Source of the DNA: Polaribacter sp. Hel1_85
GTDB taxonomy: Bacteria > Bacteroidota > Bacteroidia > Flavobacteriales > Flavobacteriaceae
NCBI RefSeq assembly: GCF_000766795.1
Contig: NZ_JPDS01000002.1
Coordinates: 997,001-1,061,000 of the forward strand
Reading direction: 5' to 3'
DNA: 64,000 nucleotides
Shown here: positions 52,949 to 57,932 of the stretch, piece by piece
Numbering within the stretch: the stretch's first letter is position 1
Layout: each line of letters begins with the position of its first letter
The notes under the pieces: generated by a model
What the model was told of the DNA's origin: nothing
Seen by the model: the letters and a program-made list of their open reading frames with translations, nothing else
Databases searched by the model: none
Translations under genes and position numbers: made by a program

Positions 52949-52956
52949 TATATTTG
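52949..52956 (+). promoter_or_regulatory. -7 promoter box of the MbnP/MbnH module
   Basis: TATATTTG followed by CGG is a good TAnnTTTG match. It contains the TTG that would otherwise look like the start codon of the next gene, so translation must begin further downstream. Confidence 0.6.
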
Positions 52957-52971
52957 CGGAAAAATTATTTT

Positions 52972-53355
52972 CTGAAAAAAATTATTTTCATAACTTTATT
53001 TGTAGCTTTTGCTCTAAGACCAATCTATCATTTAGGGTATATTGCTTATTTTGAGTATAATATAGATTACATTATAGAAACGTATTGTGTAAATAAAGAA
53101 AAGCCACAGTTACAATGTAATGGTAAATGTCATTTAGCAAAACAAATTGCTCCTCAAGTAGATCTTTCTGATAACGATATAAAAGGTTTAAATACAATTT
53201 CCGAAGCATTTTTCCCTGTTTTTAAAGAAGAAGCATATAGTTATAGCATAAAAAAACTACCTCAAGTAAACATAAAAGATAATTGGAAATTACGATTTTT
53301 AAATCCAATAAATCTTGTTAACTTTTTGGAACAACCTCCAGATTTTCTTTCTTAA
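52972..53355 (+). CDS. Small CxGKCH-motif protein of the copper-type module
   Basis: About 127 residues with an N-terminal hydrophobic segment (KKIIFITLFVAFALRPIYHL) that may be a signal anchor. The central motif QCNGKCHLAKQIA, preceded by YCVNKEK, has two or three Cys and a His that could bind a metal. The start is doubtful: TTG 52954 overlaps the -7 box, and the frame then offers CTG 52972 just before KKIIF; CTG is preferred here. I recognise this type of small protein before MbnP genes in flavobacteria but it has no assigned role. Confidence 0.6.
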   Translation: MKKIIFITLFVAFALRPIYHLGYIAYFEYNIDYIIETYCVNKEKPQLQCNGKCHLAKQIAPQVDLSDNDIKGLNTISEAFFPVFKEEAYSYSIKKLPQVNIKDNWKLRFLNPINLVNFLEQPPDFLS

Positions 53356-53394
53356 ATAGAACTCAAATTACATTAAAATTATTTTAGTGCTTTT

Positions 53395-53422
53395 TTATAG
53401 AACCATTTTAGGTTTTCTATAA
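53395..53422 (+). promoter_or_regulatory. Hairpin in the gap before mbnP-like gene
   Basis: TTATAGAA-CC ... GG-TT-TTCTATAA forms a stem with one bulge. A second hairpin (AATACTTTT / AAAAGTATT, 53468-53491) is 15 bases before the next ATG. They may set message stability or translation of the MbnP-like gene; not like a terminator since no T tract follows. Confidence 0.4.
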
Positions 53423-53505
53423 GATACTTCTGTGCTATAATAAACTACACCTATTTATAAAAACCATAATACTTTTAAACCAAAAAGTATTAAAAAAAGA
53501 AAATA

Positions 53506-54282
53506 ATGAAAATTACAAAATACATAGCTGCATGTTTTATTGCGCTAACAATTACTGCATGTTCAAGCGAAGAAGAAGAAATAACAGGAGAAGGAAATGT
53601 TTCTTTAGAATTCGATAATTCTTATAGTACTTCAGATTTATTATTAACCACAACTTCTTATGATGCAAATGAAACAGAAGAAGTTAAAATTTCTAAAGTA
53701 AAATATATTGTTAGTAATATTAGGTTAGAAGATGAAGATGGAGTTGTTTTTACATATCCCAAAGAAGATTCTTATTTTATTGTTACAGAAGAAGATGGAG
53801 CCTCTCAGTTTATAAACCTTACAAATGTTCCTGCAGGAAATTACACAAAAATAACTTTTGGAATTGGGGTAGATAAAGAAAAGTATTTAGAAGGAGCAAC
53901 AGGTCAAGGAGATTTTTTAACCTTAGCACAAGATGCAGGTATGATGTGGTCTTGGCAAGCTGGTTATAAGTTTTTTGTTTTTGAAGGTGTTTATACTTCA
54001 GATGAAACAACAACAGAAACTGCTTTTGCTTTTCATATGGGAAGCCACGGTACTGCTTTAGATAATTATAAAGAAGTAACTTTAGATTTAACAAACTCAG
54101 CAAGAGTTAGAGTAGACACAACTCCAGAAATACATGTTGTTGCAGATATTTCTAAAGTACTTGCCGGAACAACAAGTTTTTTATTAGATGATGCTGCTCA
54201 AATACATGTAGACGCAGTAAAATCTCCACAGATTTCAACCAATGTTAATGGTATGTTTACTGTAGATCACGTACATAATTAA
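53506..54282 (+). CDS. MbnP family copper-binding lipoprotein
   Basis: A 258-residue lipoprotein (ITACSSEE). It has the MbnP (DUF4465-type) pattern: VSLEFDNSYSTSDLLL at the mature start, VKISKVKYIVSNIRL, AGNYTKITFGIGVD, the conserved MMWSWQAGYKFFVFEG (about 146-161), AFHMGSHGT with two His, and IHVVADIS near the end. In characterised MbnP proteins a Trp is oxidised to kynurenine by the partner MbnH, which creates a copper site. The two Trp in WSW and the His residues make this possible here. The C terminus is TVDHVHN. Confidence 0.85.
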   Translation: MKITKYIAACFIALTITACSSEEEEITGEGNVSLEFDNSYSTSDLLLTTTSYDANETEEVKISKVKYIVSNIRLEDEDGVVFTYPKEDSYFIVTEEDGASQFINLTNVPAGNYTKITFGIGVDKEKYLEGATGQGDFLTLAQDAGMMWSWQAGYKFFVFEGVYTSDETTTETAFAFHMGSHGTALDNYKEVTLDLTNSARVRVDTTPEIHVVADISKVLAGTTSFLLDDAAQIHVDAVKSPQISTNVNGMFTVDHVHN

Positions 54283-54290
54283 ATTTAACA

Positions 54291-54328
54291 AAAACGCAAT
54301 TAGAGGTTTTCTAATTGCGTTTTTAATC
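54291..54328 (+). terminator. Hairpin terminator between MbnP and MbnH genes
   Basis: A perfect 13-base stem, AAAACGCAATTAG and CTAATTGCGTTTT, then T-rich sequence. It may end or attenuate the message so that MbnP is made in excess over MbnH. Confidence 0.85.
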
Positions 54329-54336
54329 TTTTAATT

Positions 54337-55386
54337 ATGAAAAATTATAACTTATTTTTTTTAGGAATATTTATTTTATTTTCTTGTTCTAATGATGAGG
54401 AGTACATTTATGTTCCTACTAATTTAGACTTAGAAATACCGAGTAATTTTCCGGAATTAGAATACGATTTGTCAAAAAATCCTTTAACAGAAGAAGGAAT
54501 TGCTTTGGGTAAAAAACTATTTTATGAAGGACGATTAGCTTCAGATAATATTATTTCTTGTGGATTTTGTCATGAACAAGCATCTGCATTTACACATCAT
54601 GGGCACACCATTAGTCATGGAGTAGATGGAAAAACGGGTTTTAGAAATACACAGCCTATACAAAACCTAGCTTTTTTCACAGAATTTACCTGGGATGGAG
54701 CAGCAATTCATTTAGATCTTCAACCAGTAATTCCTATTACAAGTGAAGTAGAAATGAACGAAACCATTCCTTCAGTTTTAGAAAAATTAAGTTCTTATTC
54801 AGAATATGAAACATTATTTACGAATGCTTTTGGAGATGCAGAAGTTACATCAGAAAGAATGTTAAAGGCACTTTCTCAATTTATGGTAACTATGATTTCT
54901 GGCGATTCTAAATATGATAAAGTTGTTAGAAATGAAGACGATACTGCTTTTACAACTTTAGAAAGCGAAGGTTTAAAAATCTTTAATAATAAATGTGCTA
55001 CTTGTCATTCTGGAGAATTATTTACAGATAAAACATATAGAAATAACGGAATTCCTTATAATACTAAATTTACGGAAGAAGAAGGTAGAAAACGTGTTTC
55101 TGGTTTTGAAGCAGACTTCTATAAATTTAGAGTACCAAGTCTTAGAAATATAGAAATGTCTTTTCCTTATATGCATGATGGTAGGTTTGGAACTTTAGAA
55201 GATGTTCTTGATTTTTATACAGACGGGATGACAGAAAACGGAGGAGTTGTAGATCCTTTATTGATTAAAAATGATGGTAGTTTAGGAATTGATATCACTA
55301 CCGATGAAAAAACAGCTTTATTAGCTTTTCTAAAAACATTAACAGATAATACTTTTTTAAATGATGAACGTTTTGCAGAATTTTAA
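54337..55386 (+). CDS. MbnH-like diheme cytochrome c peroxidase/MauG family protein
   Basis: A 349-residue lipoprotein (ILFSC). Two c-type heme sites are visible: CGFCHEQ (about 75) and CATCHSG (about 218). Between them lies the family region with Trp and Met residues, and LRNIEMSFPYMHDGRFGTLE is typical of the cytochrome c peroxidase/MauG family. MauG-like enzymes use a high-valent diheme to oxidise a partner protein; MbnH does so on MbnP. It overlaps the next gene by 26 bases. Confidence 0.88.
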   Translation: MKNYNLFFLGIFILFSCSNDEEYIYVPTNLDLEIPSNFPELEYDLSKNPLTEEGIALGKKLFYEGRLASDNIISCGFCHEQASAFTHHGHTISHGVDGKTGFRNTQPIQNLAFFTEFTWDGAAIHLDLQPVIPITSEVEMNETIPSVLEKLSSYSEYETLFTNAFGDAEVTSERMLKALSQFMVTMISGDSKYDKVVRNEDDTAFTTLESEGLKIFNNKCATCHSGELFTDKTYRNNGIPYNTKFTEEEGRKRVSGFEADFYKFRVPSLRNIEMSFPYMHDGRFGTLEDVLDFYTDGMTENGGVVDPLLIKNDGSLGIDITTDEKTALLAFLKTLTDNTFLNDERFAEF

Positions 55387-56323
55387 AATCAAAAAATTAA
55401 TCCTAGTTTTAGGGTTTATATTTATATCACAAGTTAGTTTTTCTTGCGATTTATGCGGTTGCTCTACAAGTAGTGGTAGTTTTGGTTTAGGAACTTTAAA
55501 CAATGCAAGTTTTGTAGGTTTTCGTTACATTTATCAAAGTTTTGAATCTAAAGATGGAATCTTTTCAAACTCACCTACAAGCAAAGAGAATTTTCATACT
55601 TATCAACTTTGGGGAAGAGTTCCTTTAACTGAAAAGTTTTATGTGAGCGCAATTTTACCTTATCAAGATTTAAAAAGAAAATATACAGACAGAGCAGAAA
55701 ATATAAATGGTTTTGGAGACGCAACTATTATGGGTTGGTATAAAATAAAATTCTATAAAAAATTTGATAAGGAAAAAGCCAAATTATATACAAATGTACA
55801 AAAGGAACCTTCTGGTCACTCCATAGAAATTGGTATAGGAACAAAATTACCAACAGGTAAATTCGAGCAAATTTTAACAGACAGAGTAAACCCTGGTTTT
55901 CAATTAGGAACTGGTAGTTTTGATGGTGTTTTATGCTTTGCACACAGTTATGGTGCAGATAAATTTGGTGTAAATACCAATTTAACGTATTATTTAAAAG
56001 GAGAAAATAAAAACGATTACAGGTTTGGAAATCAGTTTAGTTATGCCTCTAATTTCTTTTATGCTATTGCTAAAGAAAAGTATATGTTGTTGCCTTTTGT
56101 GGGTTTTAATGGTAATATTTACAATAAAATAGAACAGTATGAAGAAAAAATTGCTAAAACAGATGGAACTGTGTTTAACGGAACTGTTGGAGCAGAAATA
56201 ACTACTAAAGATTTTATTTTTGGTGCAAATTATACCTTGCCAATTTCTCATAATTTATTTGGCGGAAATGTAACACCTAAACAAGCATTGTCTATTTATT
56301 TAAATTTTAAACTGAATAAATAA
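55361..56323 (+). CDS. Outer-membrane beta-barrel protein of the copper-type module
   Basis: A 320-residue protein with signal peptide ending in QVSFSC and a Cys-rich start CDLCGCSTSSGSF that could bind copper. The rest consists of alternating strands (VGFRYIYQSFESKDG, WGRVPLTEKFYVSAILPY, YMLLPFVGFNGNIYN) ending in LSIYLNFKLNK, so it is probably a porin-like barrel, in the transporter/MetA-pathway-of-phenol family. Such CDLCGCS proteins follow MbnP/MbnH pairs in Bacteroidota. It starts inside the MbnH gene (translational coupling). Confidence 0.75.
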   Translation: MMNVLQNFKIKKLILVLGFIFISQVSFSCDLCGCSTSSGSFGLGTLNNASFVGFRYIYQSFESKDGIFSNSPTSKENFHTYQLWGRVPLTEKFYVSAILPYQDLKRKYTDRAENINGFGDATIMGWYKIKFYKKFDKEKAKLYTNVQKEPSGHSIEIGIGTKLPTGKFEQILTDRVNPGFQLGTGSFDGVLCFAHSYGADKFGVNTNLTYYLKGENKNDYRFGNQFSYASNFFYAIAKEKYMLLPFVGFNGNIYNKIEQYEEKIAKTDGTVFNGTVGAEITTKDFIFGANYTLPISHNLFGGNVTPKQALSIYLNFKLNK

Positions 56324-56345: not shown

Positions 56346-56377
56346 AAAAAAGGCGAACAGAAATGTTCGTCTTTTAT
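56346..56377. terminator. Bidirectional terminator
   Basis: AAGGCGAACA and TGTTCGTCTT with a four-base loop (one G-T pair), T-rich on both sides, between converging genes. Confidence 0.85.
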
Positions 56378-57240
56378 TTTACCTCTAATTTATAACCAAC
56401 TCCATGTATGTTTGTTAGTTTAATGTTTTTGTCTTCTTGTAATTTTTTTCTCAATTTAGAAATATACGTATCTAAACTTCTACCCACAAAAACACCATTA
56501 TCTTCCCAAACTTTTTTGGTAAGTTCTTCTCTTTTTATAACTTGATTTGGGTTGGCTACAAAGATTTCTAACAACTCACATTCTTTTTTAGAAAGCGGAA
56601 TTTCGGCTGCTTTTTTAACCAATTTATTCTGCTCTGGATAAAATTGAAAGCTCCCAATATTAATAGAGTTTTTATTTTTAGGTTTAATCTTTTGTAAAGG
56701 TTTCTTTTTTGTGAAGACGAAATACATCAACCATAAAATTGCGATTAAAAAAAGTGTATAAAAAATAATTTTTATGATAGAAGTTTGATTTGTTTCTTTT
56801 AGAAAATTTACTCTTACAGAATAGCAATTTTCAGGTAAATATCTTCCTGCGCAAGGAATAATAGTTTGCTCTTCTAATTCGTGTATTTCATAACTATAGG
56901 CAACTTCATTGTCAGAACAACGAATAACTGCTACTCTATACTTTTTTGATAAAGATGTTTTTTGAAAAACGTTTCTAATAATTATTACTAAAGTATTGGG
57001 TTCAAAAGAGAGTTTTTTTTCAAAAGAAAGAGAAAATTTATTCTCGTCGATTTCTTTAACAGGAAGCACTAAAGAACTCGAGTCTTTTTGAGATAACAAT
57101 AATTGATTTCCAACTTCTCTTAAAGCAACTTTTACTTTTTCAGAAAAATCTTCATTTTCATTTTTGGGTGATGAAAAATTTAAAAAACCAAAAACAGCAA
57201 TTGCTAAAAGTAAGACTCTAAAAATATTCTTTTTACTCAT
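56374..57240 (-). CDS. Membrane-anchored winged-helix transcriptional regulator
   Basis: A 288-residue protein. An N-terminal hydrophobic segment (about 8-24) and a second at about 155-178 border a periplasmic domain with Cys residues (VIRCSDN, IIPCAGRYLPENCYSV). The C-terminal domain (about 190-288) is an OmpR-type winged helix: SFQFYPEQNKLVKKAAEIPL, KKECELLEIFVANPNQVIKR, SLDTYISKLRKKLQ, GVGYKLEV. This is a one-component sensor of the CadC/ToxR kind but with N-terminal sensing and C-terminal DNA binding. Divergent from YceI, with direct repeats between. Confidence 0.85.
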   Translation of the reverse strand: MSKKNIFRVLLLAIAVFGFLNFSSPKNENEDFSEKVKVALREVGNQLLLSQKDSSSLVLPVKEIDENKFSLSFEKKLSFEPNTLVIIIRNVFQKTSLSKKYRVAVIRCSDNEVAYSYEIHELEEQTIIPCAGRYLPENCYSVRVNFLKETNQTSIIKIIFYTLFLIAILWLMYFVFTKKKPLQKIKPKNKNSINIGSFQFYPEQNKLVKKAAEIPLSKKECELLEIFVANPNQVIKREELTKKVWEDNGVFVGRSLDTYISKLRKKLQEDKNIKLTNIHGVGYKLEVK

Positions 57241-57362: not shown

Positions 57363-57932
57363 ATGATTAAAAAAATCTCTTTACTAATTTTTATGTGTTA
57401 TTTTACTTTACAAATAGATGCACAAGAAAAAATAAAATTAAACACTAAAACCATTACTATTATTTGGGAAGGAAGCAAACTATTTAACTTTGGAAGTCAT
57501 GATGGAACCGTAAATTTTAAAGAAGGAGAAGTTGTTGTAAAAGACAGTAAAATTACGAGTGGTAGTTTTATAATTGATATGACATCCTTAAAATCTAACG
57601 AGACAGAAAATTGGGTACATGACCTTATTGAGCATTTAAAACACAAAGATTTTTTTGATGTTAAAAGCAACCCAACAGCAAAAATTGTTTTCACAAATAT
57701 AAAATATGTTGGTGATGGTTATGTACAAATTACTGCAGATTTAACCATTAATAAAATTACAAATTCTGTCTTTTTTGTAGGAAAGCAAAATGATGAAAAA
57801 AGACAATTAGAAACTAGATTAAAAATTGATAGAACAGATTGGAAAATTACCTATAAATCGCAAGGAAAAACAAGTATAAAAGATCAGATTATTTCTGATG
57901 CTATTTCTTTTAAAGTCAAATTAAATTTTTAA
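57363..57932 (+). CDS. YceI family protein
   Basis: A 189-residue secreted lipocalin-like protein. Signal peptide to about residue 20; KTITIIWEGSKLFNFGSHDG is the YceI start with the typical beta strands, then SGSFIIDMTSLKSNE, HLKHKDFFDVKSNPTAKIVF and LKIDRTDWKITYKSQG. YceI proteins bind long apolar molecules such as isoprenoids in the periplasm. First gene of a short operon with two paralogous secreted proteins, divergent from a membrane regulator. Confidence 0.92.
   Translation: MIKKISLLIFMCYFTLQIDAQEKIKLNTKTITIIWEGSKLFNFGSHDGTVNFKEGEVVVKDSKITSGSFIIDMTSLKSNETENWVHDLIEHLKHKDFFDVKSNPTAKIVFTNIKYVGDGYVQITADLTINKITNSVFFVGKQNDEKRQLETRLKIDRTDWKITYKSQGKTSIKDQIISDAISFKVKLNF

Follow-up and report, generated by a model that had tools for sequence, protein, structure and literature searches.

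A probable copper-sensing upstream ORF heads an MbnP/MbnH-type gene cluster with a likely outer-membrane channel in Polaribacter sp. Hel1_85

The genome of Polaribacter sp. Hel1_85 (3.9 Mb) contains, within the 64,000-nucleotide (nt) stretch analysed here (the window), a run of four open reading frames (ORFs) on the + strand. In the order given by the ORF list, these are a small ORF (52972..53355), an MbnP-family protein (53506..54282), an MbnH-family di-heme enzyme (54337..55386) and a β-barrel protein (55361..56323), the last two overlapping by 26 nt. This arrangement agrees with a preliminary description of the same DNA, made from its letters alone, which proposed an outer-membrane copper uptake or sensing system with the small protein as a transfer or sensor partner and the barrel as the point of copper entry. 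The argument developed below is that the small ORF is likely a regulatory upstream ORF (uORF), the nascent product of which would sense copper in cis, and that the genes behind it may serve copper import.

The product of the small ORF, 127 residues long from its presumed CTG start, combines a hydrophobic N-terminus, a CxGKC-type Cys core (CVNKEKPQLQCNGKC; 53086..53130, +; C39, C49, G51 and C53) and a C-terminal EQPPDFLS, the PP codons of which (53335..53340, +) are the proposed arrest site and are followed by four codons (DFLS) and then the stop. The three Cys, one Gly and the C-terminal PP are invariant among 38 aligned members, and with iterated profiles in the MbnP-locus set (see below) the core is retained at C39 in 71/71 and at C49, G51 and C53 in 70/70 sequences each. 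The larger set of small ORFs includes close relatives, was detected with profiles that were themselves derived from it, and stems from a scan of ORFs of at least 60 residues. Within it, PP lies no more than 15 residues from the end in 215 of 217 members, with 1-12 residues, mostly 2-4, behind it; for comparison, PP occurs in the last 14 residues of 9 of 620 background ORFs. The distance from the last core Cys to PP is 62-75 residues (standard deviation 2.1, n = 215 of 217), and in PP-bearing small ORFs F is found at -2 in 103/133 and H, R or K at -1 in 105/133; EQPPDF recurs in Polaribacter and genus loci. Across 214 small proteins, the Cys core and the tail reach mean pairwise identities of 0.56 and 0.58, respectively, compared with values of 0.22 for the N-terminus (0.082 when shuffled) and 0.085 for the linker (0.066 when shuffled), i.e. 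the linker is held in length and its sequence is hardly conserved. By hydropathy alone, a hydrophobic N-terminus (best 19-residue window of at least 1.6) is present in 182/214. Scans of the window with Pfam and NCBIfam gave no match to the small protein, and a PDB sequence search with its profile returned nothing at E ≤ 10.

The region preceding the small ORF is similarly characteristic. The sequence TATATTTG (52949..52956, +) has the form TAnnTTTG, which we take to be the Bacteroidota -7 promoter element; this form is found upstream of 159/216 small ORFs, and 146 of its occurrences fall in the interval from 150 to 106 nt ahead of the codon for the first core Cys, against about 6 predicted by its frequency in coding DNA. 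The small ORF thus probably starts at the CTG at 52972, and not at 52949 or 52954. The closest relatives of the window protein among the named loci, those of P. vadi (L211) and an uncultured Polaribacter (L224), each with 57% identity, have by eye CTG and TTG, respectively, at the same place. In the 151 of 216 small ORFs with a usable promoter motif, taking the start as the first in-frame NTG after the motif, this codon is TTG in 64, ATG in 38, GTG in 37 and CTG in 12; it is thus other than ATG in 113, of which 10 have an ATG within 10 codons.

Between the small ORF and mbnP lies a gap of 150 nt (family median 117.5 nt, n = 80, with the gene start set to the first Met of the ORF). Two hairpins are predicted within it, a bipartite hairpin A (53379..53443, +; z of the gap -3.19) and a hairpin B directly before the mbnP start codon (53467..53492, +), and a similar two-hairpin layout is predicted in L211 and L224. 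Across the family, the 100 nt past the small-ORF stop have a mean folding z of -1.68 (n = 216), compared with -0.23 inside coding genes (n = 270).

The distribution of the family was surveyed from two sides. Around matches to the MbnP profile PF20243, 120 stretches were collected, each of about 16 kb if the contig was long enough, giving 121 loci with the window; two of these (L149 and L150) lie around below-cut-off matches, one weak place (G178:C4) was left out, and iterated profiles were used. A further 60 stretches away from MbnP were chosen by hand from matches to the small-protein and barrel profiles. PF20243 is present in 101/392 Bacteroidota genomes (100 above cut-off), and among the matches listed phylum-wide, which for the small-protein and barrel profiles are only part of the total, the small protein is commoner, with 161/392, and the barrel is found in 134/392; in a genus draw the small protein is present in 93/146 genomes. 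Of the 121 MbnP loci, 118 contain MbnH, 58 the small protein and 43 the barrel; both of the latter are present in 41, an association with a Fisher p of 3e-16, uncorrected for phylogeny. In the loci with both, the genes follow one another as in the window, apart from L041 and L080, which have the barrel ahead of MbnP; a hand count of family codes places the 43 barrel loci in 13 families. All four genes occur together in 66/261 loci, these having been selected for MbnP, small protein or barrel.

The small ORF heads TonB-receptor, YHS/SCO and barrel operons as well as those of MbnP. The next labelled gene after 217 small ORFs in the 261 loci is mbnp in 80, a TonB receptor (tbdt) in 72, barrel in 31, ytka in 16, yhs in 9, small and sod in 2 each and mbnh in 1, with none in 4. 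The 60 non-MbnP stretches contain the small protein in 60/60, a TonB receptor of one cluster in 49, the barrel in 7, and receptor plus barrel in 2. Three TonB receptors were scanned, two from stretches away from MbnP and one from an MbnP locus; all have TIGR01778 (TonB-copper) as their best match, with scores of 144-262 bits that fall short of the cut-off (472). Other partner clusters, each judged from a single representative, comprise SCO1, YHS, PepSY_TM, YtkA-like and Fe/Mn superoxide dismutase (SOD) proteins; clustered SCO proteins occur in 10 MbnP loci, every one of which has the small protein. The window genome itself has a second small uORF (L191; G000:C2:488294-500647) before a TonB copper-like receptor, with, by eye, cytochrome bd subunit-like ORFs upstream on the opposite strand. 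Five loci (L085, L096, L097, L101 and L102) show a double-headed cluster of uORF-YHS-SCO-Fe/Mn SOD-uORF-MbnP-MbnH-barrel, and in seven (L163, L164, L173, L178, L189, L208 and L209) the small uORF is followed directly by the barrel without MbnP or MbnH, with a TonB receptor next in L163 and L164.

Some MbnP loci in which no CxGKC uORF was detected have another PP-tailed small ORF upstream, with an RGPP or RDPP tail and a CPY motif in L108, L123, L129, L132 and L134, and with an FHPP tail in L110; by eye, these appear CutF-like. In loci without the CxGKC family, a PP-tailed ORF precedes MbnP in 13/67, compared with 15/125 for antisense and 5/133 for upstream-of-MbnH controls, so that an excess is not clear overall, although some cases look real by eye.

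With regard to the genes that the uORF precedes, MbnP and MbnH are truly related to the kynurenine-copper pair, in which MbnH oxidises a Trp of a WxW motif in MbnP to kynurenine, so completing a Cu(I) site. The window MbnP (53506..54282, +) matches PF20243 (E 6e-50, 170.2 bits, cut-off 27); because it misses the TIGR04052 equivalog cut-off (55.9 vs 140 bits), it is assigned to the family, not to the equivalog. Its W148-S-W150 and H177, which the preliminary description had picked out together with the CDLCGCS start of the barrel, are conserved in 118/122 (W148), 109/122 (W150) and 121/123 (H177, a putative ligand), and a profile alignment with 7l6g covers the WxW and His stretches (E 1.5e-4; single-sequence match E 0.37). 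A model of the protein (predicted local distance difference test, pLDDT, 89.5) gives six matches at E ≤ 0.001, all to 7l6g chains, with template modelling (TM) scores of 0.48-0.51 to the query. The MbnH-like protein matches CCP_MauG (E 2.5e-49), has TIGR04039 as its best-scoring family (233 bits, under the cut-off of 362.85), aligns with 6e1c over residues 38-347 and carries two CxxCH heme sites, conserved in 133/133 and 132/132 family members, respectively. The family identities given earlier for both proteins are thus borne out, and the copper-uptake setting of the module is supported. Both are apparent lipoproteins, with, by eye, a lipobox-like Cys (C19 in MbnP, C17 in MbnH) followed by acidic residues. 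In Flavobacteria acidic residues behind the lipobox Cys can mark surface lipoproteins, so that capture of copper at the cell surface is plausible. In their gene pairing and retention of WxW and His, the two resemble MbnP/MbnH (7l6g, 6e1c), CorA/CorB and MopE/SACCP (PMC3621798, PMC3912023); they differ in falling below the NCBIfam equivalog cut-offs, in being apparent lipoproteins and in having a uORF on one side and a channel gene on the other.

The barrel protein has no Pfam match and no significant NCBIfam match in the window scans, and a PDB sequence search with its profile gave nothing at E ≤ 10. Its AlphaFold2 model (pLDDT 82.7) has FapF and the COG4313 channel (4rl8) as closest solved folds (TM 0.55-0.61 to the query), at 13-15% identity; unlike these, it has an N-terminal CDxCGC and a copper-type setting. 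Of the 13 strand segments in the model, those at 112-118 and 121-132 look like a single broken strand, so that a 12-stranded barrel is likely. The CDLCGC motif (55445..55462, +) is conserved at C29 (41/41), C32 (41/41) and C34 (36/41), and in a 32-row alignment C29 and C32 are invariant and D30 and C34 nearly so; the stretch has low pLDDT, so that its placement in the model is tentative. The earlier proposal that the barrel lets copper in therefore finds agreement as regards an outer-membrane channel, which is the likely identity of the protein on the basis of the model, and which may let copper into the periplasm. Among the matches listed, those of at least 157 bits number 47, comprising the 43 in MbnP loci and four others (G388:C20, G045:C55, G158:C22 and G164:C14), in each of which a small ORF precedes the barrel. 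TonB receptors of one cluster are present in 17/121 MbnP loci, with the barrel in 0/17 of these (Fisher p 5e-4, uncorrected for phylogeny). The idea that the barrel replaces the TonB receptor as a rule was nevertheless rejected, as both co-occur in L163 and L164 and in 8 named architectures (sBT 6, sBsT 1, sPHBT 1).

The anatomy of the small ORF is close to that of CruR, and CutF provides a second regulatory protein of this type; it is on this basis that the first ORF of the window operon is read as a copper-sensing uORF. CruR, a DUF2946 uORF of Bordetella pertussis, is reported to sense copper in the nascent chain via a Cys motif, and to require a C-terminal RAPP at a held spacing, copper relieving the arrest so that Rho ends transcription (PMC9426467); the arrest has been demonstrated in vitro (PMC12992588). 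Like CruR, the window uORF is the first ORF of a copper-type operon and has a Cys motif, a near-terminal PP at near-fixed spacing and a long gap before the next gene. Homologues of CruR are found at the start of TonB, PepSY_TM, Sco and MbnPH operons (PMC9426467), as are members of the small-uORF family. The motifs differ, being CXXC and RAPP, 45 residues apart, in CruR, but C...CxGxC and F[HRK]PP (EQPP in the window), with about 68 residues between the last core Cys and PP, in the small family. Membership of DUF2946, itself found in 5/148 Bacteroidota genomes (2 above cut-off), was rejected, since no match was obtained in 38 members; by analogy, the small uORF would work like CruR, yet it is not to be classed as DUF2946. 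CutF of Rhodobacter capsulatus, which has a CxxxC motif and controls a multicopper oxidase, is reported to respond to copper in the opposite sense to CruR, with the start of the next gene covered by a hairpin (PMC9973294). CutF-like proteins share with the window uORF short length, a Cys motif, PP in the last 15 residues, a same-strand next gene and a hairpin before its start; by the values used to define them (<150 residues, PP in the last 15, a same-strand gene within 1000 nt), the window protein has 127 residues, PP at 122-123 and mbnP at +150 nt. The definition also asks for an N-terminal signal peptide, a point on which the small family was viewed by hydropathy alone (see above).

It is likely that the small ORF is a copper-sensing uORF of either sense, and moderately likely, by analogy with CruR, that it governs a copper-uptake operon which copper represses. 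In such a mechanism the hydrophobic N-terminus of the uORF product would be directed to the membrane, the Cys core (C...C-x-G-K-C) would meet copper with the chain still on the ribosome, and the C-terminal PP would slow or arrest the ribosome a few codons short of the stop. As in Bordetella CruR, when copper is low the ribosome would stay stalled and the downstream genes be expressed, and binding of copper to the Cys core would release the stall and shut the operon off. A Trp of the MbnP WxW motif would be oxidised by MbnH to kynurenine, making a Cu(I) site, and the outer-membrane channel with CDxCGC may admit copper to the periplasm. Repression by copper is favoured because the regulated genes appear to be largely of import type.

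Several observations weigh against this interpretation. The direction of regulation is uncertain, because copper acts oppositely in CruR and CutF, and the PP tail of CutF by itself is reported to have given no arrest (PMC9973294). Searches of the small family found neither CXXC nor RAPP/RGPP, the DUF2946 profile (PF11162) matched 0/38 members at E ≤ 1, and the window tail, EQPP, departs from the F-H/R-P-P usual among its relatives. Past barrel and TonB-receptor stops, which are not always operon ends, the DNA is predicted to fold just as strongly (mean z -2.05, n = 120, p 0.27); a two-hairpin gap is seen by eye in only 6/11 genus loci with MbnP next, two of the six apparently duplicating the L211 and L224 sequences, and covariation is weak (term +0.5, i.e. 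unfavourable; double changes in 4/16 pairs). An intrinsic terminator past the uORF as a general switch was rejected, terminator-like hairpins within 150 nt of the stop showing no special excess (small 36/216, mbnp 28/158, mbnh 9/159, barrel 21/97, tbdt 27/119). With respect to Rho, C exceeds G over the last 225 nt in 90.8% of 217 small ORFs, compared with 44% for mbnp, 53% for mbnh, 13% for barrel and 37% for tbdt, but the coding-strand excess is mostly a matter of amino-acid composition (0.052 observed, 0.038 expected, 194 ORFs); with amino acids and codon usage allowed for, it lies above expectation in 143/194 small ORFs and in 65/114 mbnp controls (p 0.046), which gives weak support to a C>G (Rho-like) bubble as a feature of the uORF. 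Finally, the uORF is absent from 63/121 MbnP loci and the barrel from 78/121, so that the flanking genes are literally absent from most MbnP loci, an outcome that the preliminary description had named as counting against it; the small protein and barrel still mark a subtype of MbnP locus across 13 families.

One alternative is that the small protein acts in trans, as a membrane-anchored periplasmic copper chaperone or store passing copper between importer and cuproenzymes. Three invariant Cys, the hydrophobic N-terminus of most copies, the adjoining copper-type genes and occasional tandem copies of the small ORF (L162, L170) would all suit such a role. A fixed-length but almost unconserved linker and a near-invariant terminal PP would not be expected of a chaperone, nor would weak start codons, an upstream promoter element and a structured gap on the 3' side, and this reading is accordingly lowered to an unlikely one. 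Of the two roles that had been offered for the small protein, transfer is not supported, and 'sensor' is probably the right label, though, given the PP tail, its fixed spacing, the almost unconserved linker and the promoter element, for a cis-acting nascent-chain regulator and not for a partner protein.

If the small ORF is a uORF, it might instead act in the sense of CutF, with copper prolonging the stall, so opening the hairpin before the mbnP start and switching the operon on. Hairpin B does directly precede that start, and the length, PP position and gene order of the window protein are those of CutF-like proteins (PMC9973294), but the genes downstream are largely import-type, and CorA and MopE are reported to be copper-repressed (PMC3912023); activation by copper is hence considered quite improbable. 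That the sensor responds to another metal, or to redox state, is very unlikely: CutF-like proteins do include His-only types beside HupE/UreJ (nickel, cobalt) (PMC9973294), and some small-ORF operons contain SOD genes, but the partners here are MbnP, SCO, TonB-copper-like and YHS proteins, and the MbnP fold is kept together with its WxW and His. Repression by copper through a CruR-like nascent-chain sensor remains the favoured explanation.

Two further structures belong to the operon. A strong hairpin between mbnP and mbnH (54290..54324, +; z -7.21 for 54283-54336), terminator-like for both strands, is a possible partial terminator, which could reduce MbnH relative to its substrate MbnP; a terminator-like hairpin found in the hairpin scan lies 3' of the barrel (56348..56375, +). 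Adjoining the operon are a Trans_reg_C-domain protein (56374-57240, -), which by eye has a transmembrane segment, and, at 57363-57932 (+), a YceI protein. Homologues of flanking genes are found, window included, in 4 loci for the Trans_reg_C protein, 1 for YceI, 3 for PPK2 and 3 for a PfkB-like protein (L211, L224 and the window); because their homologues are rare in other loci, the Trans_reg_C and YceI genes seem unlinked to the operon.

A regulator of this kind is not new, CutF-like proteins of Bacteroidota having been tallied earlier, at 40% of the survey normalised and 19% otherwise (PMC9973294). That survey already counted many Bacteroidota proteins, and one of its 29 network clusters may correspond to the small family; the available text of the survey does not name MbnP as a CutF-like neighbour. 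Arrest peptides with a C-terminal Pro have also been reported upstream of sec genes in Bacteroidota (PMC10987492). In the literature searched, which covered few subscription papers, no description was found of the small Cys family with F[HRK]PP or of its link to MbnP, MbnH and the barrel. A survey of RAPP/RGPP-bearing uORFs is reported to find copper-related uORFs missing from Bacteroidota and TonB-related ones universal in Gram-negative bacteria (PMC12992588), so that RAPP/RGPP may be present in some of the TonB uORFs of this phylum; the tail motif described here would, if the present proposal is correct, lie outside the reach of that survey.

More broadly, we tentatively suggest, with a little less than even confidence, that the family comprises nascent-chain copper sensors spread through the phylum Bacteroidota, with F[HRK]PP arrest, no detectable relation to DUF2946, and a place as the interchangeable head of at least three import devices (a TonB receptor, SCO/YHS proteins, and MbnP-MbnH with the CDxCGC channel). 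If so, metal sensing by a half-made protein would be a general route by which Bacteroidota control copper import, and a likely function would be available for a small protein of 161/392 Bacteroidota genomes that is an orphan in Pfam and NCBIfam. The kynurenine-copper pair would, moreover, gain a link with a regulator and with a candidate route across the outer membrane, in a setting that can be tested in culturable flavobacteria.

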